Of a DNA stretch of 64,000 nucleotides, positions 7,382-61,828 are shown in pieces. The notes below the pieces were generated by a model. It was not told where the DNA came from. It ran no database searches and saw only the letters and a list, made by a program, of their open reading frames with translations. Origin of the DNA: an uncultured Gammaproteobacteria bacterium (GTDB lineage: Bacteria > Pseudomonadota > Gammaproteobacteria > Steroidobacterales > Woeseiaceae). Numbering within the stretch: position 1 is the stretch's first letter; each line of letters starts with the position of its first letter. The DNA is taken from NCBI GenBank assembly GCA_937899415.1, contig CALBPI010000062.1:62001-126000 (forward strand), in the 5' to 3' direction. The translations under genes were made by a program, and so were the position numbers.

Positions 7382-7390
7382 GGTGATCCA

Positions 7391-7732
7391 CTAGTCGATC
7401 AGCGCCGCCCAGCGGTCCGCGTCGAAACCCACCGTGACTGCGGTTGCCGTCTCGAGAACGGGGCGCTTGATCAGCGTCGGGTGAGCGATCAGCTGCTTCG
7501 CCGGGTCGTCCAGAATCTCCCCACGAGTTGCGTCGTCAAGCCCACGCCAGGTCGTCGAGCGACGGTTGATGAGGGCGTCCGCGCCCACCGCATCAAGCCA
7601 GCGCGCGAGCATTGCGGAGTCGGGTGTCGACTCACGGACATCGACAAAGTCGTGCGCCGAGCCGCGCGCATCGAGCCAGCGCCGGGCTTTGCGACAGCTG
7701 TCGCAATTCTTGAGGCCGTGGACGGTGATCAT
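7391..7732 (-). CDS. yffB: ArsC/Spx-family thioredoxin-fold protein YffB
   Basis: A 113-residue protein of the arsenate-reductase-like family. It closely follows the E. coli YffB pattern: [16 protein letters not shown] at the N-terminus with Cys10 and Cys13, RRSTTWRGL in the middle, and IKRPVL near residue 87. In E. coli yffB is next to dapE, and here it overlaps dapD by 4 nt (ATGA), so it belongs to the dap operon. Its biochemical role is not settled; a glutathione-dependent thiol reductase activity has been proposed. Because of the genetic context, true arsenate reduction seems unlikely. Confidence 0.88.
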
Positions 7733-8553
7733 CCGTGCGACGCCGCCCGCAGCAGTTCATTGAGCCCGACACGCTTACGCGTCTTCTCGTCAACGCGCTT
7801 GACGATGATCGCGGCATAGAGCGAGTAGCGGCCGTCGTGGGAGGGCAGGCTGCCGGGTACCACGACGCTGCCCGCGGGCACGCGGCCGTAGTGCACCTCA
7901 TTGGTATCCCGGTCGAAGATGCGTGTGCTCTGCCCGATGTACACACCCATCGACAGCACGGCGCCTCGCTCGACGATGACGCCTTCGACGACCTCGGACC
8001 GGGCGCCGATGAAGCAGTCGTCCTCGATGATCGTGGGCGTCGCCTGCAGGGGCTCGAGCACACCGCCAATGCCGACACCGCCCGACAAGTGGACATTGCT
8101 GCCGATCTGGGCGCAGCTGCCAACCGTGGCCCAGGTGTCCACCATGGTGCCGCTGCCAATGTAGGCGCCGATGTTGGTGTAGGAAGGCATCAGGACAACA
8201 TCGGGCGCGACGTAGGCACCCTGACGAACCTGTGCGTCGGGTACCACGCGAACGCCATCGCGGGCAAAGTCCTCGGCCGTGTAGTCCGCGTACTTGAGCG
8301 GCACTTTGTCGTAGTAGGGGTTCGGCGCGTGCTCAATGCGCGCGTTGTCGCGCAGACGAAACGACAGCAGCACGGCTTTCTTCAGCCACTCGTTGACCTG
8401 CCAGTCGCCATCGACGGGCTCCGCAACCCGGGCCTCGCCGCGGTCGAGCAGCCCGATGGCCGCATCGACGGCGTCGCGCAATGCGGTATCCGCCCTGTCG
8501 ATGGAGTCGCGCGCCTCCCAGGCGGCCTCAATGGTGTCGATGATCGCCTGCAT
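7729..8553 (-). CDS. dapD: Tetrahydrodipicolinate N-succinyltransferase DapD
   Basis: DapD uses succinyl-CoA to acylate tetrahydrodipicolinate, the entry step of the succinylase lysine/DAP branch. The 274-residue product matches the E. coli length exactly. An N-terminal helical domain precedes a left-handed beta helix with hexapeptide repeats (for example [20 protein letters not shown] and VGIGGVLEP). The open frame continues far upstream through dapC, but this ATG is chosen because a perfect AAGGAGG lies 8 nt before it (minus strand, 8562-8568) and the product then has the conserved N-terminus. dapC ends 4 nt upstream; yffB overlaps downstream. Confidence 0.96.
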
Positions 8554-8557
8554 GGCG

Positions 8558-9760
8558 TCAGCCTCCTTGGCTTGATTCGAAGTCGGCCACGCGCTGGACG
8601 GCCTCGAGTGTTTGTTCGGGTGTCGCGACCAGTGACAGTCGCACGTAGCCTTCACCGGGGTTGCGGCCGTCGACTGTGCGCGCGAGGTAGCGCCCTGGCA
8701 CAACCGTGACGCCGGCACTCGCGTGAAGCTGTCGCGCCCATTCGGTTTCGTCCCCGCCGACGGGTAGCCACACGTAGAACGTCGCGGCCGGTGTGTCGAC
8801 CGCCCAATGTGTCGCGAGCACGGGCAGTGCTTGAGCGTACTTGTCATTGTATTGCGCGCGATTGTCGGCGACATGGGCGTCGTCGTTCCATGCCGCAATA
8901 CTGGCCGCCTGCACGGCCAGCGACATCGAGCAGCCATGGTAAGTGCGGTAGCGCCCGTAGTCGCTGATGAGGGCGGTGTCGCCGGCCACAAATCCCGAAC
9001 GCATACCGGGCAGATTGGAGCGCTTCGAGAGGCTGTGGAACACGAGTACCCGCTCGAACGCGTCGCTACCCAAAGCGGCGGCCGCATTGAGCATCGATAC
9101 GGGTGGTGTGTCGCGGTAGAGCTCGATATAGCACTCGTCTGTGAGCACGATGAAGTCATGTCGTTGCGCCAGTTCAACGAGGTGCTTCAGGTAATCGAGA
9201 TCCGCGACCGTGCCGCAGGGGTTCACAGGGTTGCAGAGGTAGAACAGGCGCGCGCGGTCGAAACGCTCGGGCGCGATTGCGTGGAGGTTGGGAAGGAAGT
9301 TATGGCCCGCTGTGACATTGAGATAGTCCGGCGCAGCCCCCGCAAGCAAGGCCGCGCCTTCATAGATCTGATAGAACGGGTTGGGCATCAGTACGGTTTG
9401 CCCGGCACCCGCGTGGCAGAACACCTGCGCCGCTGCAAACAGCGCTTCTCGGGTTCCCGTGACGGGCTGCACCATGCGCGTGGGGTCGACCGTGACGTCA
9501 AAGCGGCGCGCGAGCCAGTCGGCGCAGGCGCTGCGCAGTTCATCACTGCCGCGAATGGTCGGGTAGCGTGAGACGCCATCCACGAGGGCATCCCGATACG
9601 CGGCCAGCGCTACTTCGGGTGGCGTGTGTCGCGGTTCCCCAATGGATAGCGGAATCGGCGTGATCGACTTGGGTGGCGTGTTGTCGCGCAGCAACGCATC
9701 GAGCTTCTCGAACGGGTAGGGCGCAAGCGCGGCCATGCCCGGATTGGAGGCATCCGTCAT
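8558..9760 (-). CDS. dapC: Succinyldiaminopimelate aminotransferase DapC
   Basis: A class I/II PLP-dependent aminotransferase that converts N-succinyl-2-amino-6-ketopimelate to N-succinyl-LL-diaminopimelate, the step between DapD and DapE. The 400-residue sequence shows [10 protein letters not shown] (cofactor phosphate/substrate region), TDECYIELY (PLP-ring aspartate) and the Schiff-base lysine in SLSKRSN. Substrate specificity is inferred from its place between glnD and dapD, the arrangement in which DapC was defined, because the fold alone does not separate it from other aminotransferases. It overlaps glnD by 4 nt. Confidence 0.93.
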
Positions 9761-12444
9761 ACGCGAATCGTCTGGCTTACGACGAGGCTTTCGTCGACAC
9801 CCTGCAGTAGTGCCTCGCGCAACGCATCGCAGTCTGCATCGCTGAGCGGCTCGTCATTCTCGTCGGTCAGGTAGAACACGTCTTCGGCGCGCTCACCGAT
9901 GGTCACGATCTTGGCCATCACAATGTAGACCTTACAGTCGATGAGCGTCTCACCGACGCGCATGAGCAGGCCCGGGTGATCGGCGCAGGTGAGCTCCATG
10001 ACGGTGAAGCGACCCGTCGGATCGGGTCGGAACGTGATGCGTGTCAGCGTGTCGAACATACGCTGACGACGTGATGCCTTGCGGCTGACGCTTGGGATGA
10101 CGTCCTCGCGGCGCTCGGCAATAGGCAGCAAGCGCTCATAGACATCGGTGAGTTTTTCGTCGTTGATGTCCGCGCCGTCAAAGTCCACGACGATGTAGGT
10201 GTCGAGACTGTAGCCATTGTTGATGGGCTCGATGCGTGCGTCGAGCACCGAGAGTCCCAGCTCGTCGAGGCCAGCTGTGACGGCCGCGAATGTGTGCTGG
10301 GTGTGCGGTGTATAGAGCATGATCGCAAGCCCACTGGCATCGGTACGCGCGACCACATCGAGCTGCGACGTCTCGAGCCCGTCGCGCGCGAGCGCGCGTG
10401 TGTGCCAGGCGATTTCATCGGCGTCGTGGCGCAGGAAATAGTCACCGGGCAGGGCGCGCCACACCGTTTCAAGCTCGGCATCGTTCACGCTGACACCGAG
10501 GGTCGCCCGCGCGGCCTCGCGCGTCGCGTCGATAAGCGCTTGCCGCTCGAGCGGGTTCTCGAGGCCACGTTCGAGCGCCTGTCGCGTGGCCTCGTAGAGG
10601 TCGCGGAACAGCTTCGACTTCCAGGACGTCCACATGGCCGGGTTCGTGCCCCGTACGTCGGCCACGGTGAGCAGGTAGAGATGGTCGAGCCTGCGCTTGT
10701 CACCCACGAGGTTCGCGAACCGCGCAATTACGTCGGGATCACTCAGGTCTTTTTTCTGCGCCGTCATCGACAGCACCAGGTGGTGCTCGACGAGCCAGGA
10801 CACTAGTTGCGCGTCCTCTTCGGGCAGGCCGTGTTCACGGCAGAACGCAAGCGCGTCGATGGCGCCCAGTTCGGAATGGTCGCCGCCGCGTCCCTTGGCG
10901 ATGTCGTGGAACAGACCCGAGAGCACGATGAGTGCCTGGTCTTTGATGCTCTTCATGACCGCCGTGCAGTGCGGGAACTCCGACTCATGTCGCGGTGATG
11001 TAAAGCGGCGCATATTGCTGACGACAAACAGCGTGTGCTCGTCGACCGTGTAGGCGTGGAACAGGTCGTACTGCATGCGCCCGACGATGCGGCCGAACGC
11101 GGGGATGTAAAGACCGAGAACCCCGTAGCGGTTCATACGACGCAGCTCGCGCGTCACGCCACTCGGTGCGCGCAGCAGGTCGAGGAACAGGCGGTGGTTG
11201 CGCGGATGCTGGCGAAACTGCTCGTCAATCAGGTGCAGACTGCGTCGCACGAGTCCGAGCGTACGCGCGCTGACACCGCGCAGGTCGGGGTGGTCCTGCA
11301 TGCAGCGGAACAGCGCCAGTAGTGCCGAGGGGTTGCGCGCGAAGACGTCGTCGTGCACCACCTGCAGGTAACCGTTGTCCGAGACGAACTGATGGTCGAT
11401 GGGAACGGGCTCGGCGTCCTGCGGCAGCAAAATGTCTTCTTCAAAGCGCTGCAGCAGCATCTCGTTAAGTCGTGACAGCTCCATGACCGTGCGGTAGTAG
11501 CGCTGCATCATCTGCTCAACACCGAGCGTGAAGCGCGCGTCCTCGTAGCCCAGCAATTCGGCCAGGGACTTCTGGTGGTCGAACAGCAGGCGGTCCTCGC
11601 GCCGGCCGACAAGCGTGTGCAGGCCGTAGCGCACGGTCCAGAGAAAGTGCTGACACTCGACGAGCCGCTGGTGCTGGCCTTGCGTCAGGAAGCCGTGATC
11701 GACGAGCTCGCCAAAACTCTCTGCGCCGAAGTGGCGCTTGGCCACCCAGCCAATCATCTGGATGTCGCGCAAGCCGCCCGGGCTGCCCTTCACATTGGGC
11801 TCCAGCTTGTAACCTGTGTCGTCGTATCTCCGGTGCCGAGCAATCTGTTCGTCGCGCTTGGCGCGGAAAAATTCGGTCGAAGGCCAGATGGACGCCGGCC
11901 CAGTCGCCGCGCCCATGGCTTCGAACAGGGCGTCGGGACCCTCGAGCAAGCGTGCTTCCATGAGCGTGGTGGCCACCGTGACATCGTCAGCTGCCGCTTC
12001 GCGGCACTGTTCGACCGTCCGTACGCTGTGGCCAACCTCGAGGCCGCTGTCCCAGAGTGCCGTGACGAACTCGGCGGCCGGCCCCGTATCGCTGTGGTCG
12101 TCCGCGAGCAGCAGCATGACGTCGATGTCGGACCCCGGATGTAGTTCGCCGCGGCCGTCGCCGCCGCCGGCAAGGCGCGCTATCCCGCTGGCGCTGACGT
12201 GGCAGTGCCGCCAGAGGCGGCGCAGCAGGGCATCAATCAGTCCTGCGTGTGCGGCGACGAGAGCTTCGACCGTTTCGGCGGCATGAAACCGCGCCGCAAG
12301 CGCCTGCTTGGCTGCAGCAAGCGGCTCCCGGCAGGCGGAGGCCGTAAACGGCTCAAGCGCTTCGAGTATGGCTTCGAATTCGGCCACGGTGTCGTCGCCC
12401 AGGGCCTGGGGCCTGCGTTGACGCGTTTCGCCGCTGACGAGCAT
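9757..12444 (-). CDS. glnD: Bifunctional PII uridylyltransferase/uridylyl-removing enzyme GlnD
   Basis: GlnD is the nitrogen sensor that uridylylates PII proteins under nitrogen limitation and removes UMP under sufficiency. The 895 residues are full length. The nucleotidyltransferase motif GGGDGRGELHPGSDIDVMLL is near residues 73-92. The HD hydrolase motif HDIAKGRGGDHSELGA lies near residue 514. Two C-terminal ACT domains (starting near 705 and 815) bind glutamine. The ATG has GGAG 7 nt upstream, overlapping the stop region of map. It is the second gene of the map-glnD-dapC-dapD-yffB cluster. Confidence 0.96.
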   Translation of the reverse strand: MLVSGETRQRRPQALGDDTVAEFEAILEALEPFTASACREPLAAAKQALAARFHAAETVEALVAAHAGLIDALLRRLWRHCHVSASGIARLAGGGDGRGELHPGSDIDVMLLLADDHSDTGPAAEFVTALWDSGLEVGHSVRTVEQCREAAADDVTVATTLMEARLLEGPDALFEAMGAATGPASIWPSTEFFRAKRDEQIARHRRYDDTGYKLEPNVKGSPGGLRDIQMIGWVAKRHFGAESFGELVDHGFLTQGQHQRLVECQHFLWTVRYGLHTLVGRREDRLLFDHQKSLAELLGYEDARFTLGVEQMMQRYYRTVMELSRLNEMLLQRFEEDILLPQDAEPVPIDHQFVSDNGYLQVVHDDVFARNPSALLALFRCMQDHPDLRGVSARTLGLVRRSLHLIDEQFRQHPRNHRLFLDLLRAPSGVTRELRRMNRYGVLGLYIPAFGRIVGRMQYDLFHAYTVDEHTLFVVSNMRRFTSPRHESEFPHCTAVMKSIKDQALIVLSGLFHDIAKGRGGDHSELGAIDALAFCREHGLPEEDAQLVSWLVEHHLVLSMTAQKKDLSDPDVIARFANLVGDKRRLDHLYLLTVADVRGTNPAMWTSWKSKLFRDLYEATRQALERGLENPLERQALIDATREAARATLGVSVNDAELETVWRALPGDYFLRHDADEIAWHTRALARDGLETSQLDVVARTDASGLAIMLYTPHTQHTFAAVTAGLDELGLSVLDARIEPINNGYSLDTYIVVDFDGADINDEKLTDVYERLLPIAERREDVIPSVSRKASRRQRMFDTLTRITFRPDPTGRFTVMELTCADHPGLLMRVGETLIDCKVYIVMAKIVTIGERAEDVFYLTDENDEPLSDADCDALREALLQGVDESLVVSQTIRV

Positions 12445-12456
12445 CGACGGCTCCGG

Positions 12457-13254
12457 TCAGGCTGCGTTGGCCTGGTCGCGGTCGCTCGCGCCCAGGGTCA
12501 GGATCTCAAAGCCCGTTTCGGTGACGAGCACCGTGTGTTCCCACTGGGTGGACAGCGAATGGTCCTTGGTGACCACCGTCCAGCCATCAGGCAGCAGTTT
12601 TGGGTGGCGCTTGCCGGCGTTCACCATGGGCTCGACCGTGAAGATCATGCCCGGCTCGAGCATGAGGCCCGTGCCCGGCTTGCCGAAATGCACGACCTGC
12701 GGGTCTTCGTGGAAGCCCTGGCCGATGCCATGACCGCAGTATTCGCGGACGACCGAACAGCGGTTGGCTTCAACAAAAGTCTGGATGGCATGGCCAATAT
12801 CACCCAGGTGCTTGCCAGGCGCGATCTGGTTGATACCGCGCATCATCGCCTCGTAGCAGATCTTCGACAGGCGCTCGGCCTGTAGCTTGGGCTTGCCCAC
12901 AAGGAACATGCGGCTCGTATCGCCGTGCCAGCCGTCCTTGATGACCGTGATGTCAATATTCAGCGCATCGCCGTTGCGCAGCTTGCGATCTGAAGGGATG
13001 CCGTGGCAGATCACATGATTCAGTGAGGTGCAGATCGACTTCGGGAAGGGCACAGGGCCGCCACCGCGGTAATTGAGCGGCGCCGGAATCGCGTCCTGCA
13101 CCTCTGTAATGTAGCGGTGGCAGATGTCGTTGAGCTCGTCCGTCGTGATGCCGGGCTTAACATAATCAGAAATCATGTCGAGCACATCGGCCGCAAGACG
13201 GCCCGCAATCCGCATCTTGTCCTGCTGCTCGGCGTTTTTGATCGTGACCGGCAT
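12457..13254 (-). CDS. map: Type I methionine aminopeptidase Map
   Basis: Map removes the initiator methionine from nascent proteins. The 265-residue protein contains the pita-bread metal ligands: [16 protein letters not shown] supplies the two aspartates, [16 protein letters not shown] the histidine, and FTVEPM and WEHTVLVTE the two glutamates. The start has AGGAA about 7 nt upstream on the minus strand. It is divergent from rpsB, the same arrangement as in E. coli, and heads a minus-strand operon with glnD 12 nt downstream. Confidence 0.97.
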
Positions 13255-13331
13255 GCCTGTTCCTGTTATCTGCTGAGAAGATCAGGGGCGCTCCACGCCC
13301 TGGTAGCGGTGCTGCACCAGCCCGCCTGGCG

Positions 13332-13361
13332 CTGGCACACGCCCGGGCTCTGTGCTATAAA
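13332..13361 (+). promoter_or_regulatory. Probable rpsB-tsf promoter
   Basis: CTGGCA (13332-13337) and TATAAA (13356-13361) are separated by 18 nt, and the -10 is extended by TGC directly upstream. Transcription would start near 13368 and give a leader of about 160 nt before rpsB. It lies in the 275-bp divergent region shared with map, as expected for a highly expressed ribosomal protein gene. Confidence 0.6.
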
Positions 13362-13451
13362 GCGCGCGCCGAGAGGGGCATCGACGGCTGGCTCAAATGC
13401 CTGCTGTCCTGCACCCAGCTCGTAATTCTAACTATTCCACACCTATATCGA

Positions 13452-13490
13452 CACCCGGTGCTGGGTGCCCCGCCGAAAAAGGGGTTGCAC
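13452..13490 (+). promoter_or_regulatory. Structured 5' leader of rpsB
   Basis: Two adjacent hairpins precede the ribosome-binding site. CACCC (13452-13456) pairs with GGGTG (13463-13467) around a 6-nt loop. Alternatively, GTGC plus CCC (13465-13471) can pair with GGG and GCAC (13482-13490) across a 2-nt bulge. The two structures share bases and so are mutually exclusive. S2 represses its own mRNA through a conserved rpsB leader in gammaproteobacteria; whether this leader works the same way is inference. Confidence 0.45.
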
Positions 13491-13529
13491 TTGGGGGATA
13501 TGGGGAGGCTTAACCCTAAGGAGACTTCC

Positions 13530-14441
13530 ATGGCCGACGTTACCATGCGTCAGATGCTGGAAGCGGGCGTTCATTTCGGACATCAGACCCGCTACTGGAA
13601 CCCGAAAATGGCCCCGTTCATTTTCGGCGATCGAAACAAGATCCATATCGTCAACCTCGAACGCACGCTGCCCCTGTTCCGCGAAGCGCTGAACTACGTG
13701 AGCGGCCTGGCGGCCGACGGCGGCAACATCCTGTTCGTGGGCACCAAGCGGTCCGCCCGTGACACCATCGGCGAAGAAGCCCGCCGTAGCGGTATGCCGT
13801 TCGTTAACTACCGCTGGCTCGGCGGCATGCTGACCAACTTCAAGACCATCCGTCAGTCGATCAAGCGCCTCAAGGAGCTGGAGAGCCTGGGCGAGGGTGG
13901 CATGGTCGAGTCGCTGACGAAAAAAGAAGTCCTCAACCTGGAGCGCGAGCGCGAGAAGCTTGAGCGCAGCCTGGGCGGCATCAAGGACATGGGCGGTCTG
14001 CCGGACGCCATGTTCGTGGTTGACGTCGGTCACGAGAACATCGCCATCGACGAAGCGCGCAAGCTCGGTATTCCGATCGTGGCCGTGGTCGATACGAACT
14101 GCGCACCCGACGGCATCGACTACGTGATTCCGGGCAACGATGACGCCATGCGCGCCATCAAGCTCTACTCAACGGCAATCGCCGACGCCGTGCTGGACGG
14201 CCGCGCTACGGCGCCGCAGGCGGTGTTGGGTGATGATGACTTCGTCGAACTCGACGAGGAAGGCAACGTCCGCAAGGCCGGTGGCAAGGGTCGTGGTGGT
14301 CGTAAACCGGCTGCAAAGGCTGCAGAGCCTGCTGCGAAGGCCGCTGAGCCGGCTGCCGCAGAGGCACCTGAGCCGGTTGCTGAAGCCGTTGCCGAAGCCG
14401 AAGCGCCTGCCGCCGAAAGCGACGCCAGCGCCGACGCCTGA
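13530..14441 (+). CDS. rpsB: 30S ribosomal protein S2
   Basis: S2 is a late-assembling protein of the small ribosomal subunit. The start [20 protein letters not shown] is the conserved N-terminus and has AAGGAG 7 nt upstream, so the open frame back to 13458 is not used. The conserved core covers about residues 1-230. It is followed by an unusual tail of roughly 60 residues rich in Ala, Pro and Glu after a basic [10 protein letters not shown] stretch, with a repeated AAKAAEP unit. At 303 aa it is about 60 residues longer than E. coli S2 (241). It is the first gene of rpsB-tsf. Confidence 0.97.
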
Positions 14442-16820: not shown

Positions 16821-17576
16821 ATGTCGGATCGCGATACGCCAAGCCATCTGGTGCGCCTGCCACAACACGTGGCCGTCATCATGGACGGCAACGGTCGCTG
16901 GGCGCGACGGCGTGGTCTGCCCCGTCACCTGGGTCACCGCGCCGGCGTCAAGGCGGTGCGCGCGACGGTGCGCCATTGCGGCGAGCTCGGCGTCGATTAC
17001 CTGACGCTGTTCGCGTTCTCGAGCGAAAACTGGTCGAGGCCGCGCGACGAAGTCGTCGGCCTCATGAAGCTGTTTCTCGACGCGCTGCAGCGCGAAGTCG
17101 CTGAGTTACACGAGAACAATGTCCGCCTGCGGTTCATTGGCGACCTGTCACGATTGTCTGAACGCCTGCGACGCGGGATGCGGGACGCCGAGCGGCTCAC
17201 CCGTGAGAATAGCGGTTTGTCGCTGCAGATCGCCGTCGGCTTTGGCGGACGGTGGGATATCGTCGAGGCCGCACGCGAGCTGGCCGAACGCGCCCGCTCG
17301 GGCACGCTCGATCCGGCGGAGCTCGACGAGCAGCACCTGAGCGACAGCCTGTCGCTTGCGGGCTGCCCCGACCCCGACCTCATGATCCGCACGGGCGGCG
17401 AGCAACGCATCAGCAACTTCCTGCTCTGGCACGCGGCTTACGCCGAGCTGTTTTTCTGCGACACGCTCTGGCCCGATTTCGACACGGACGCGCTTGAACA
17501 GGCCCTGACCTGGTTCGGCAGTCGCGAACGTCGCTTCGGCCGTGTGGAGACGCTTCCGAAAGAAGAGGCCAGCTGA
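16821..17576 (+). CDS. uppS: Undecaprenyl diphosphate synthase (cis-prenyltransferase)
   Basis: UppS adds eight isopentenyl units to farnesyl diphosphate to make the C55 lipid carrier for peptidoglycan and LPS O-units. The 251-residue protein shows the hallmark HVAVIMDGNGRWARRRG with the catalytic aspartate, followed by GHRAGVKAVR, TLFAFSSENW and the C-terminal DLMIRTGGEQRISNFLLW. It is an obligate consumer of isoprenoid precursors, which matters because dxr, ispD and ispF are missing from their usual places in this window. cdsA begins directly after its stop. Confidence 0.97.
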   Translation: MSDRDTPSHLVRLPQHVAVIMDGNGRWARRRGLPRHLGHRAGVKAVRATVRHCGELGVDYLTLFAFSSENWSRPRDEVVGLMKLFLDALQREVAELHENNVRLRFIGDLSRLSERLRRGMRDAERLTRENSGLSLQIAVGFGGRWDIVEAARELAERARSGTLDPAELDEQHLSDSLSLAGCPDPDLMIRTGGEQRISNFLLWHAAYAELFFCDTLWPDFDTDALEQALTWFGSRERRFGRVETLPKEEAS

Positions 17577-17577
17577 C

Positions 17578-18390
17578 GTGCTGCGCGCTCGAATCATCAC
17601 CGCCATTTGCGCACTGGCGGCCATTTTCCTGGTGCTCTTCGTGCTGCCACCCGTGGTGGTCTCTCCGGTCATTCTTCTTGTAATCACGGGCGCGGCCTGG
17701 GAGTGGTCGCGGCTTGCGGGGCTTGAGGCTGCGCTGCCGCGTGCCGCCTACATCCTCGGCATCGCGGCGATGACGGCTGCGGCATCGATCACCTGGCCCA
17801 ATGCGATCTTCGGGCCGCTGCTTGTGGCCGCTGGCATCTGGTGGCTCATCGCATTCGTGCTGGTGGTGCGCTATCCCGTCAAGGTGCCGCGCGAGCTGGT
17901 CCTGCTTGGCGGGCCACTCACCCTGGTGCCCGCAGGTTTCGCGCTTGTCGCGTTGACCCGCAACGAGATGCTGACGACGCTTAACGGCGCGGGCCTGTTG
18001 TTGTTTGTGCTCGTGACGATCTGGGGTGCCGACGTGGGTGCTTACTTCGCCGGCCGCGCGCTGGGCAAACGCAAGCTCGCGCCGCATGTCAGCCCCAACA
18101 AGACCTGGGAGGGCGTGTTCGGCGGGCTCGCGCTCGTGGCGCTCATCGGCCTTGCCGGTGCGTGGATCACCGGGCTCGCCTGGTTTCGTCTCGTGCCGCT
18201 GTGTATCGCCGTGGCAGCCATTTCCATCGTCGGTGACCTGACCGTGAGCCTCTTCAAGCGTGAGGCCGGGATCAAGGATTCGGGCACTCTGTTTCCCGGG
18301 CACGGCGGGATTCTCGACCGCATCGACAGCATCGCGGCGGGTACGCCGTTGTTCGTGGCGGGCATCTACCTCGGGCATGGACCGTGGTAG
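17578..18390 (+). CDS. cdsA: Phosphatidate cytidylyltransferase CdsA
   Basis: CdsA makes CDP-diacylglycerol, the precursor of all bacterial phospholipids. I place the start at GTG 17578, just after the uppS stop, with AGAAGAGG upstream; an in-frame GTG at 17542 would overlap uppS. The 270-residue product is a multi-spanning membrane protein with the family signature in the C-terminal half: SPNKTWEGVFGG, then GDLTVSLFKREAGIKDSGTL and LFPGHGGILDRID. In most gammaproteobacteria dxr comes next. Here a 139-bp gap leads straight to rseP. Confidence 0.95.
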   Translation: MLRARIITAICALAAIFLVLFVLPPVVVSPVILLVITGAAWEWSRLAGLEAALPRAAYILGIAAMTAAASITWPNAIFGPLLVAAGIWWLIAFVLVVRYPVKVPRELVLLGGPLTLVPAGFALVALTRNEMLTTLNGAGLLLFVLVTIWGADVGAYFAGRALGKRKLAPHVSPNKTWEGVFGGLALVALIGLAGAWITGLAWFRLVPLCIAVAAISIVGDLTVSLFKREAGIKDSGTLFPGHGGILDRIDSIAAGTPLFVAGIYLGHGPW

Positions 18391-18464
18391 TCGCGGGTGC
18401 TGACTTAAGCCTACGGGGCCCCTCGTGTATCGTTTCGGACAGCGTTTCGATGCCAGCGGCCCGG

Positions 18465-18491
18465 GAACGATGGCTGCCGGGTATGGTCTGT
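18465..18491 (+). promoter_or_regulatory. Candidate sigma-E promoter for rseP-bamA operon
   Basis: GAACGA (18465-18470), a 16-nt spacer and TCTGT (18487-18491, within GGTCTGTAA) resemble the RpoE consensus GGAACTT-N15/17-TCTAA/TCTGA. The first residues of the -35 are strict (GGGAAC), while the last two differ. The spacing is identical to the candidate rpoE promoter at 52707-52733. The rseP-bamA region is a known sigma-E target in E. coli. Confidence 0.5.
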
Positions 18492-18529
18492 AACGACGGT
18501 GACGTGCCGAGCGCGCGGAGGGGCCACGA

Positions 18530-19903
18530 ATGACAGTACTGGGCTATGTGTTTGCGCTGATCCTGACGACCAGCCGGCTCGTCGCCGAGCACGAGTTCGG
18601 GCACTTCATCGTGGCTCGCTGGTGCGGCATCAAGGTGCTGCGATTCTCGATCGGTTTCGGCAAGCCCATCTGGCGCTACCAGCGTCACCGCGACGACACC
18701 GAGTTCTGCATCAGTTCACTGCCGCTGGGTGGTTACGTCAAAATGCTCGACGAGCGCGAGGGCAATGTCTCAGCGCGTGATGCCGGCCGGAGTTTCAACG
18801 CCCAGCCCGTCTGGCAACGTATTGCCGTGCTGCTTGCGGGGCCTGCGTTCAATTTCCTGTTTACGATCGCTGCCTACTGGTTGATCTTTGTGCTCGGCAC
18901 GACAGTGACGCGGCCTGTGGTGGGCGAGGTGGCGCCGGGATCACCCGCCGACGTAGCGGGTCTCGAATACGGCGATGTCATCGTGTCGGTGGGCGACCGT
19001 TCGATCAAGGGTTGGCAGAGTGGCTTGCTGGTGCTCGTGGACGAGCTTGTCGACGACGCGCAAATCCCGCTGACGATCGACCGCAAGGGCGAGGGCAGCT
19101 TCAAGACCGTGCTCGTGGCCAGTGCCGAGACAGCGCGCTTGAGCGAGCCCGGCAAGCTGTTTGAAGGTCTGGGTTTCGGCGTCTGGTCGCCACCACCCGT
19201 CATCGGCGAGGTCAACCCGGATACACCTGCAGCGAACGCGGGTATCCAATCCGGCGACCGCATCCTCACCCTGAACGGCGAGGTGGTTGCGACGTGGACC
19301 CAGGTTGTGGAACGTATCCGCGCGTCGGGTGAGCAACCGATTCAGCTGACACTGGAACGTGGCGATCAGGTCGTCGATCTGTCCGTGACACCGCGCATGG
19401 AAAAGACGAAAGCAGGCCCCATACCTCAAATCGGGGCCACCAATTATGTTGACGAAGAGACGAAGCCCAAGAATCTGAACGTCGAGCTCAAACTGGGCGT
19501 CATCGAAGCCTTGCCCGCTGCGGTTGTGAAGACGGGTGAACTGACGACGTTCACACTCGAAATGTTTGGCCGCATGATCACGGGCTCCGTGTCGACTAAG
19601 AATATCTCGGGCCCGATCAACATCGCCGAGTATGCGGGTTTCACCCTGAGCCGCGGCTTCGTCGAGTTTCTGGATTTTCTGGCGCTCGTCAGCGTCAGCC
19701 TCGGTGTCCTCAACTTGTTGCCCGTGCCCATGCTCGACGGTGGCCAGATTGTCTACCAGTCCGTCGAGGGCATTACAGGCCGCCCGCTCTCCGAGCGTCT
19801 GCAATTGCTCGGCCACCAGGTCGGCCTGTTTCTGCTTGTCGGGGTCATGAGCCTCGCCTTCTACAACGATATCGCCCGCGTCGTCGAACGTTTTCTGAGC
19901 TGA
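18530..19903 (+). CDS. rseP: Site-2 intramembrane zinc protease RseP
   Basis: RseP performs the second cleavage of the anti-sigma factor RseA, releasing sigma-E, and also clears signal peptides. The 457-residue protein has the zinc motif HEFGH (His21, Glu22, His25) in its first membrane segment, two PDZ domains (about 105-195 and 210-295), and the third zinc ligand Asp403 in MLDGGQ. The target anti-sigma RseA is encoded at 53395. Around the active site the sequence reads SRLVAEHEFGH, with Arg and Glu where most homologues are hydrophobic. It lies directly where dxr would normally precede it. Confidence 0.95.
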   Translation: MTVLGYVFALILTTSRLVAEHEFGHFIVARWCGIKVLRFSIGFGKPIWRYQRHRDDTEFCISSLPLGGYVKMLDEREGNVSARDAGRSFNAQPVWQRIAVLLAGPAFNFLFTIAAYWLIFVLGTTVTRPVVGEVAPGSPADVAGLEYGDVIVSVGDRSIKGWQSGLLVLVDELVDDAQIPLTIDRKGEGSFKTVLVASAETARLSEPGKLFEGLGFGVWSPPPVIGEVNPDTPAANAGIQSGDRILTLNGEVVATWTQVVERIRASGEQPIQLTLERGDQVVDLSVTPRMEKTKAGPIPQIGATNYVDEETKPKNLNVELKLGVIEALPAAVVKTGELTTFTLEMFGRMITGSVSTKNISGPINIAEYAGFTLSRGFVEFLDFLALVSVSLGVLNLLPVPMLDGGQIVYQSVEGITGRPLSERLQLLGHQVGLFLLVGVMSLAFYNDIARVVERFLS

Positions 19904-37004: not shown

Positions 37005-37005
<1 letters not shown>

Positions 37006-37325
37006 TGCGTGACGTCGTCCGAACAGGCCGTGCACTGCGTGCCAGCACCGTGTGCCTCCTGGTCGCGGGGGCCTTCTTTGCCTGGACGATGACCCAATTG
37101 CTCTTGTCGCCCGATGGTTTGCGCAAGACGCGGGAGCTGCGCGCGGCCGTGGCGACGACGCGCGTGGAGATTGCGTCGCTTGAGCGGCGACATGCGTCGC
37201 TGGCTGCCGAGGTCAACAACCTCAAGCGTGGTCTCGAAGCCGCCGAGGAACGCGCGCGCGCTGACCTCGGCATGATCGGCATCAACGAGTCGTTCTACCA
37301 GATCATCGTCACGGACGCCGAGTGA
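37005..37325 (+). CDS. ftsB: Cell division protein FtsB
   Basis: FtsB is a bitopic membrane protein of the FtsQLB divisome complex that activates septal peptidoglycan synthesis. The 106-residue product has a short cytoplasmic N-terminus, one membrane segment (about 11-31), a periplasmic coiled coil (about 37-85) and the conserved ERARADLGMIGINESFYQII near the end. In most relatives ispD and ispF come next, but here the stop overlaps the truD start by 4 nt. Confidence 0.93.
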
Positions 37326-38359
37326 CCGCCACGGCCGGCGGCTGGCCGCAACCCGCGGCCCATGGCCCGAGCCTGGCAACCGCGCAGCTGCGCACTCAGC
37401 CCGAGCACTTCTCGGTCGACGAGATTCCAAACTGGACCCCGACCGGTGACGGCGAGCACGATGTGGTTTACGTGGAGAAGCGCGGCGCCAATACCCGCTG
37501 GGTGGCGGGCGCGCTGGCGCGCCACGCGGGCTGCCATGCCCGCGACGTCGGTCATGCCGGGCTTAAGGATCGACATGCGGTGACGCGGCAGTGGTTCAGC
37601 GTGCAGCGCGGTGGTCGCCGGATTGACTGGAACGCGCTCGAGGTCGACGGTGTGCGTGTGCTCGAGGTTCATGCGCACCGGCGCAAGCTGCGACCGGGTG
37701 CGCTTGTGGGCAATCGCTTTCGCATCGTTGCAATCCTGGGTGACCGCGGGGCCATCGACAGCGAGGCGCTCGAATCCCGTATCGCCGCGGTCAAAGCGCA
37801 GGGCGTCCCCAACTATTTCGGTCCGCAGCGGTTTGGGCGCGACGGGGGCAACCTCGTGCTCGCCGGCCGACTGGCCGCGGGTGAACGCCTTGGGCGTGGC
37901 GACCGGAGTTTCGCGGTATCCGCTGCTCGCGCCGCGCTATTCAATGCGGTGCTCGCGAGGCGCGTGACCGATGCGAGCTGGTGCGTTCCACAGTCAGGTG
38001 ATGCGCTCATGTTGTCGGGCTCGAACAGCTTCTTTTTGGCCGGACCCGATGAGTCGCTCGAGGCACTCCGAGCGCGCGCGGACCGCGGCGATCTGCAACC
38101 CACGGGCCCACTTTGGGGTGAGGGCGCGTCGGCCGTCGCAGGCGAGGTTGCGGCGCTCGAGTCCCGGGTGGCCCAGGCGCACCCTGAATGGGTTGCGGCC
38201 ACGCACCGCGCGCGAGCCGAGGGCGCGCGTCGCGCGTTGCGGGTCTTTGCGTCGGAATTCGAGATGGCGCCTGTTGACGCGGGTTACGCGCTGAGTTTCA
38301 CATTGCCGGCCGGCAGCTTTGCTACGACCGTCGTCAACGAGTTCTTCTCGGTCGACTAA
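37322..38359 (+). CDS. truD: tRNA pseudouridine(13) synthase TruD
   Basis: TruD converts U13 of tRNA(Glu) to pseudouridine. The GTG start overlaps the ftsB stop by 4 nt. The 345-residue product has the family hallmark GHAGLKDRHAVTRQWFSV with the catalytic aspartate near residue 84, and NYFGPQRFGRDGGN near residue 165. The TRUD insertion domain follows. The stop interlocks with that of the convergent Smr gene (4-nt overlap). The tight junction with ftsB leaves no trace of ispD-ispF. Confidence 0.95.
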   Translation: MTATAGGWPQPAAHGPSLATAQLRTQPEHFSVDEIPNWTPTGDGEHDVVYVEKRGANTRWVAGALARHAGCHARDVGHAGLKDRHAVTRQWFSVQRGGRRIDWNALEVDGVRVLEVHAHRRKLRPGALVGNRFRIVAILGDRGAIDSEALESRIAAVKAQGVPNYFGPQRFGRDGGNLVLAGRLAAGERLGRGDRSFAVSAARAALFNAVLARRVTDASWCVPQSGDALMLSGSNSFFLAGPDESLEALRARADRGDLQPTGPLWGEGASAVAGEVAALESRVAQAHPEWVAATHRARAEGARRALRVFASEFEMAPVDAGYALSFTLPAGSFATTVVNEFFSVD

Positions 38360-60359: not shown

Positions 60360-61103
60360 GTGGACGCGGGGCAACGCATTCAACTGCAGCCCTGCTGGGT
60401 GCTGCACCGTCGCGATTTTCGCGACTCCAGCCAGATCATCGAGGTACTGAGCCGAGAGCACGGGCGACTGGGCCTTGTGGCCCGCGGCATCAAACGTCCC
60501 AAGAGCCGCTTGCGCGGCATCCTGCAGCCGTTCGCACCGCTGTTGCTCTCGTGGGTTGCGGGTCGTGAGCTTGCTACAATGAGCGGCGCAGAACCCGGGC
60601 AGGGTGCGCCGCACCACCTGCGGGACACGCGGCTCATGTCGGGGTTCTACATCAACGAACTGATCTTGAGACTGACGCACCGTTTCGACCCGCAGCCCGA
60701 TGTGTTTGATCGGTATGCGCACTGCCTGCAACGCCTGTCCGGAGACGACCCGGTTGCGGCAACCCTGCGCGACTTTGAGCTCGATCTGCTCGACGCGCTG
60801 GGCTTCGCACCAAACCTCACGAACGACGTTGTGAGTGGCGCACCCGTTGAGGCGGGCCGTGCCTATGACTTTGTGGTCGATGAGGGACCGCACGCGACAC
60901 AAACGGGCGCGGGCGTGGAAGCTGTCGACGGGGCCGTGTTGCTGGCCATGGCGGCCCGCGATTGGCGCGAGCCCGAGGTGTTGCGCACGGCCCGGCGGCT
61001 GCTGGGGCGCGCGATCGACCTGCAGCTCGATGGCAAACCGTTGCACACGCGGCGGGTGCTCAGAGACTTGCGTCAGCGTGACTATGGGACGGGAGCCCAG
61101 TAA
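60360..61103 (+). CDS. recO: DNA repair protein RecO
   Basis: RecO works with RecR and RecF in loading RecA onto SSB-coated gaps. The 247-residue GTG-started protein has the N-terminal OB fold ([20 protein letters not shown], then [20 protein letters not shown]) and a helical C-terminal domain. The zinc-finger cysteines found in some RecO proteins are absent, as in other gammaproteobacteria. The stop shares a base with the pdxJ start. Confidence 0.95.
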
Positions 61104-61828
61104 TGCACAGCCCAATCTTCCTCGGCGTCAACGTCGACCACGTGGCCACACTTCGGCAGGCGCGCGGCGAGCGCTACCCGGACCCGGTGGCCGCAGCGCT
61201 CGTGGCCGAGCGCTCGGGCGCAGACTCGATTACGGTCCACCTGCGTGAAGACCGCCGGCATATTCAGGACCACGACGTTGTGCGATTGCAGGCGAGCACG
61301 CAGACGCGGGTGAACCTCGAAATGGCGGTCACCGATGCCATGCTCGAATTTGCGCGCGAGGTGGGGCCAGCCGATTGCTGCCTGGTGCCGGAGAAACGCG
61401 AAGAGCTGACCACCGAAGGCGGGCTCGACGTGGCCGGCGCCCAGGCGCGCATCAAGGATGCCGTTGATGCCTTGCCCGGGATTCGGGTGTCGCTGTTTAT
61501 CGATGCCGATCGCGCGCAGATCGATGCGGCGGCGGCGACCGGCGCGCCCGTCATCGAATTGCACACGGGACACTACGCGCTCGCACGCGGTGGCGACGTT
61601 GGCAACGAGCTGGCGCGTATCCGCGAGGCCTCGCGCTACGCGTCGTCGCTGGGTCTGACCGTTCACGCGGGCCACGGCTTGACGCGGCACAACGTGCAGC
61701 CGATCGCGGCCATTGCCGAGATCGTCGAGCTCAACATCGGCCACGCGCTGATCGCCGACAGCGTATTTGAGGGCGTGCCCGCTGCGGTTGCCGAGATGAA
61801 GCGTCTCATGGTGGAGGCGCGAACATGA
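61103..61828 (+). CDS. pdxJ: Pyridoxine 5'-phosphate synthase PdxJ
   Basis: PdxJ condenses 1-deoxy-D-xylulose 5-phosphate (DXP) with 3-amino-2-oxopropyl phosphate to form pyridoxine phosphate, the precursor of PLP. The 241-residue TIM barrel shows [50 protein letters not shown] and [11 protein letters not shown] near residue 191, all typical of the family. Its need for DXP implies a DXP synthase somewhere, which is noteworthy because other MEP-pathway genes are missing from this window. It overlaps acpS by 4 nt. Confidence 0.97.

Follow-up and report, generated by a model that had tools for sequence, protein, structure and literature searches.

The bacterial family Woeseiaceae, or a family that includes it, very probably descends from an ancestor that exchanged the MEP pathway for the mevalonate pathway. 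In the genome from which the present window was taken, a draft of 3.94 Mb in 102 contigs that is 98.4% complete, none of the seven MEP steps (dxs, dxr, ispD, ispE, ispF, ispG and ispH) gave a match above its family cut-off, with positive controls. Two of the places from which MEP genes are missing lie in the window, by which we mean the whole stretch of 64,000 nucleotides analysed, and a cluster of mevalonate pathway genes lies on another contig of the same genome.

The site of the missing dxr is the spacer between cdsA and rseP (18391..18529, no strand assigned), which is 139 bp long and without Dxr similarity. Its upstream neighbour, cdsA (17542..18390, plus strand), occupies a conserved position and encodes a phosphatidate cytidylyltransferase whose best NCBIfam match was PRK11624 (E = 8e-58, below the cut-off of that model). 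The downstream neighbour, rseP (18530..19903, plus strand), encodes a site-2 protease that matched TIGR00054 above cut-off (346.6 bits). When six Dxr proteins of relatives were used as tblastn queries against the window, the best match had an E-value of 0.018, the same six queries giving 4e-136 or lower against a dxr-positive locus. The Dxr profile TIGR00243 had zero matches in a profile search of all contigs of the genome; as a control, it matched E. coli and eight other genomes (9 of 14 controls). Also in this region is uppS (16821..17576, plus strand), named as undecaprenyl diphosphate synthase by sequence and by position, the latter matching that of uppS in relatives. UppS uses IPP, and the cell therefore requires an IPP source.

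Reading of the same locus in related genomes, as the sequence-only reading had proposed, gave a consistent picture. Measured from stop to start, cdsA and rseP were 99–227 bp apart (median 154) in all 30 family loci read and 1174–1226 bp apart, with dxr exactly in the gap, in 12 of 12 dxr-positive loci of the same order, these 12 having been picked because Dxr had been found there. The earlier description of a 139 bp interval without dxr between intact neighbours in their usual order was thus upheld by the coordinates, the tblastn search and the TIGR00243 profile, and the comparison with relatives shows a clean excision of dxr. That reading had offered either precise loss or relocation; the first stood and the second did not, as no MEP gene was found above cut-off anywhere in the 98.4% complete draft.

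A second scar is present between ftsB (37005..37325, plus strand; PRK00888, 61.8 bits, below cut-off, with a conserved position after eno) and truD (37322..38359, plus strand; identified by TruD models). The two genes overlap by 4 bp (37322..37325), and ispD and ispF are gone from their usual place, in agreement with the earlier remark that the window lacks both. The ftsB gene adjoins truD directly in 10 family genomes as well. In dxr-positive relatives the gene order is ftsB-ispD-ispF-truD, and all of the genes tested there, ispD in three relatives and ispF in two, scored above their cut-offs.

The six MEP families other than dxr were also searched for in 60 relatives of the same family, and none was found above cut-off in any of these genomes. 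The profiles for ispG, ispH and ispF had no match whatsoever in the genome examined here or in the 60 relatives, and those for ispD, ispE and dxs had only matches below cut-off in the same set. The weak dxs-like matches in our genome were to transketolase and pyruvate dehydrogenase E1 subunits, not to Dxs, and the weak ispE-like match was homoserine kinase. Its ispD-like matches are confined to roughly the first 130 profile positions, and the profile also matched 14 of 14 controls; such partial matches are expected from nucleotidyltransferases of other pathways. For dxr, no convincing match was found among the 40 family genomes within a sample of the order. Together, these searches indicate that the genome and the sampled relatives have lost the entire MEP pathway, and that the loss of dxr is family-wide and accompanied by that of dxs. 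The best dxs-like score of the family came from a split transketolase-like pair in one relative (L231, G050:C27 3166-5111), the C-terminal half of which reached 173 bits, below cut-off; another relative (G032) also gave a weak dxs-like match below cut-off.

The sequence-only reading had suggested a search for mevalonate pathway genes, and this was positive, with the steps from HMG-CoA synthase through IPP isomerase in one cluster on contig C61 (locus L013, G000:C61), outside the window. An FPP synthase gene (6424..about 7308, minus strand) lies beside the cluster. It is followed by a gene for diphosphomevalonate decarboxylase (7384..8385; TIGR01240, 250 bits against a cut-off of 171), one for a probable phosphomevalonate kinase (8396..9406; best match TIGR01220, 67 bits against a cut-off of 166, with a weak match to 3k17), a gene for a fusion protein of 936 residues (9403..12213) and a gene for a divergent HMG-CoA synthase (12230..13702, minus strand; best match TIGR01835, 169 bits against a cut-off of 360, with the HMG-CoA synthase structure 5hwo matched at 4e-30). 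The phosphomevalonate kinase and HMG-CoA synthase assignments are probable ones, based on weaker similarity and on gene order. The fusion protein matched three curated profiles above cut-off, namely those for HMG-CoA reductase (TIGR00532, 363 bits against 260), mevalonate kinase (TIGR00549, 226 bits against 163) and type I IPP isomerase (TIGR02150, 152 bits against 106), the last in the kinase's own frame. The reductase stretches EEPS, THNKG, GNDWR and GHMALH are intact by comparison with 6dio, and the isomerase stretch NSCCSHP is intact too. The order of the cluster is kept across the family loci read.

Of the 61 family genomes, 58 have an HMG-CoA reductase (PF00368), among them every one of the 37 with at least 90% completeness and at most 5% contamination. 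Among 196 genomes of the order, Dxr was found in 59 (58 above cut-off plus one truncated gene, a match of 18.6 bits in G017 being left out) and HMG-CoA reductase in 139. The two are nearly exclusive of each other in this sample: eight genomes have both and six have neither, and in each of the eight the reductase frame is of stand-alone length (391–578 residues). Both states occur in another family of the order, f4, in which one genome (G063) has Dxr and a reductase of stand-alone length and three (G077, G090 and G101) have a reductase of fusion length and no Dxr; this family might capture the pathway switch. In a genome of family f7 (G066, 82% complete) neither Dxr nor HMG-CoA reductase was found, which reflects either incompleteness or a different isoprenoid source. 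Several Woeseiaceae genomes (G057, G054, G016, G009, G053 and G023) also carry a second, stand-alone HMG-CoA reductase (L001-L006). These score higher with PF00368, resemble the reductase of our genome little or not at all by tblastn and possibly belong to the other reductase class.

Reductase-kinase fusions, mostly with an adjoining isomerase gene, were present in Woeseiaceae, Nevskia, Rhodanobacter, Dyella, Salinisphaera and several MAGs. A tree of 98 reductases placed 68 of the 69 fusion-type rows in a single group (support 100/99); the one outside it has a long branch and comes from a Zixibacteria MAG. The reductase-kinase fusion of our genome is thus shared with a monophyletic group of gammaproteobacterial reductases. 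The reductase of our genome forms the first, long branch of the Woeseiaceae group, a placement that is not certain. The isomerase start overlaps the reductase-kinase stop in several Woeseiaceae (e.g., L016 and L047), so a triple fusion needs just an in-frame junction. Among the loci in which an isomerase was found, only our genome has it in the reductase-kinase frame, and the triple fusion is thus known from one draft assembly, whose genus has a single member in the sample. Long open frames next to the reductase in GC-rich relatives had suggested further triple fusions; in every relative in which an isomerase was found, it is in a different frame. Five MAGs labelled Planctomycetota also carry a reductase-kinase fusion (L032, L033, L065, L073 and L074). 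Their reductases group with Salinisphaera in the tree, indicating either gene transfer or mislabelled bins.

Based on these observations, we propose that the family ancestor would have carried a mevalonate cluster in which HMG-CoA reductase and mevalonate kinase were already fused, and that clean deletions would then have removed all seven MEP genes, leaving the neighbouring operons intact. IPP would be made from acetyl-CoA via HMG-CoA, mevalonate, phosphomevalonate and diphosphomevalonate, DMAPP would come from the type I isomerase, which in our genome is joined to the reductase-kinase, and the products would be consumed by UppS and by the FPP synthase encoded beside the cluster. The missing MEP genes, the cluster with its gene order, the fusions, the two scars and the distribution among genomes are direct observations; the enzyme activities, the gain of the cluster before the loss of the MEP genes and the running of the pathway in the cell are what we infer.

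Other explanations for the short cdsA-rseP interval fare poorly against these data. A draft in 102 contigs with 98.4% completeness leaves some room for dxr having been relocated, or simply being absent from the assembly, but this would require that the seven MEP genes be absent together. Furthermore, dxs and ispD-H are also absent from the 60 relatives, one of which (G006) is a one-contig genome, the order sample includes 40 family genomes without a convincing dxr, and the assembly runs across both the cdsA-rseP and the ftsB-truD junctions. We consider relocation or an assembly gap extremely improbable. The same holds for retention of the MEP pathway with Dxr replaced by a DXR-like reductase (DRL), a substitution described for some bacteria (PMC3847144). 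With dxs, ispD, ispE, ispF, ispG and ispH missing too, a DRL would be left without a substrate, or a use for its product, and could not complete the pathway.

Import of isoprenoid precursors from a host, with the mevalonate cluster serving another purpose, would have a parallel in host-bound bacteria without a full pathway that take up IPP, such as Rickettsiales (PMC13001223). The genomes in question are mostly 2.5–5.4 Mb in size, and the cluster appears to have every step to IPP and DMAPP, adjoins the FPP synthase gene and keeps its order in the family loci read, all of which argue against import. It is a very unlikely explanation, and replacement of the MEP pathway by the mevalonate pathway is the reading that we favor.

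Simple pathway replacement does not predict the retention of pdxJ without a known source of DXP, which is the product of Dxs. The gene for pyridoxine 5'-phosphate synthase in the window (61103..61828, plus strand) is intact, matches TIGR00559 above cut-off (294 bits) and has the gene order rnc-era-recO-pdxJ-acpS; its product matches E. coli PdxJ (1m5w) over nearly the full length (E = 2e-87). In relatives pdxJ was not near mucD and was located by synteny downstream of lepA, where it was present in 7 of 7 family genomes in which the region was read, the proteins being 59–65% identical with the same conserved blocks. ThiG is the other user of DXP. Across the 61 family genomes thiG gave short partial matches only, two of them just above the Pfam cut-off, and thiazole synthesis therefore appears to have been lost in the family. 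PdxJ joins DXP to 3-phosphohydroxy-1-aminoacetone (PMC9997740).

The family thus seems, from its gene content, to have retained the B6 branch without a known source of its precursor DXP. A supply of DXP by other enzymes is possible, since E. coli can obtain enough DXP to replace Dxs through mutations in aceE or ribB (PMC3424233). We tentatively suggest, as a possibility somewhat short of an even chance, that PdxJ works on DXP from a source other than Dxs or on another substrate. Candidate sources may include pyruvate dehydrogenase, transketolase or RibB acting in a side reaction, or a shunt that starts from methylthioadenosine. Either a non-Dxs source or another PdxJ substrate, if real, would amount to a branch of vitamin B6 synthesis that has not been described. 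The passages of a survey of B6 pathway holes that bear on the subject (PMC9997740) contain no discussion of pdxJ without dxs, a combination that poses a sharp and testable question as to the origin of DXP or the identity of the other substrate.

Events in which one pathway takes the place of another are known, and patchy use of the MEP and mevalonate pathways among bacteria has been described (PMC13001223). The importance of the present case lies in an essential pathway having been exchanged, apparently completely, throughout a marine gammaproteobacterial family, with deletion scars that can be read against relatives of the same order. Fosmidomycin targets Dxr, and these bacteria, in which that target is absent, should therefore be indifferent to it. 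The reductase-kinase(-isomerase) fusion is in addition a natural candidate for channelling that could be useful for isoprenoid engineering. As a weak negative, a search of the open-access literature returned no relevant account of mevalonate use in Woeseia, Nevskia or Rhodanobacter and no report of a reductase-kinase fusion.

The cluster appears to cover the same steps, from a probable HMG-CoA synthase, through a probable phosphomevalonate kinase, to the isomerase, as the classical bacterial mevalonate pathway of Gram-positive cocci and others. It differs from that pathway in that reductase and kinase are one protein, which in our genome includes the type I isomerase, and in its divergent phosphomevalonate kinase and HMG-CoA synthase. 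When gammaproteobacteria that use mevalonate are cited, the examples are usually Legionella and Coxiella, which are likewise credited with having it replace the MEP pathway. According to PMC13001223, the Legionella species analysed there have no phosphomevalonate kinase, and most have no HMG-CoA synthase. By comparison with that published description, all steps appear to be covered by the Woeseiaceae cluster, and its carriers are not known as intracellular organisms. Myxococcaceae (Corallococcus and relatives) also have neighboring genes for reductase, mevalonate kinase and decarboxylase, with 35–51% identity to those of our genome, but their reductase and kinase are encoded by separate genes and their reductases belong to another clade. 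MvaE of enterococci, a fusion of acetyl-CoA acetyltransferase and HMG-CoA reductase, is likewise a natural fusion that includes the reductase; in MvaE the thiolase is ahead of the reductase, whereas in the fusions described here it is the mevalonate kinase, and in our genome also the isomerase, that follows behind it.
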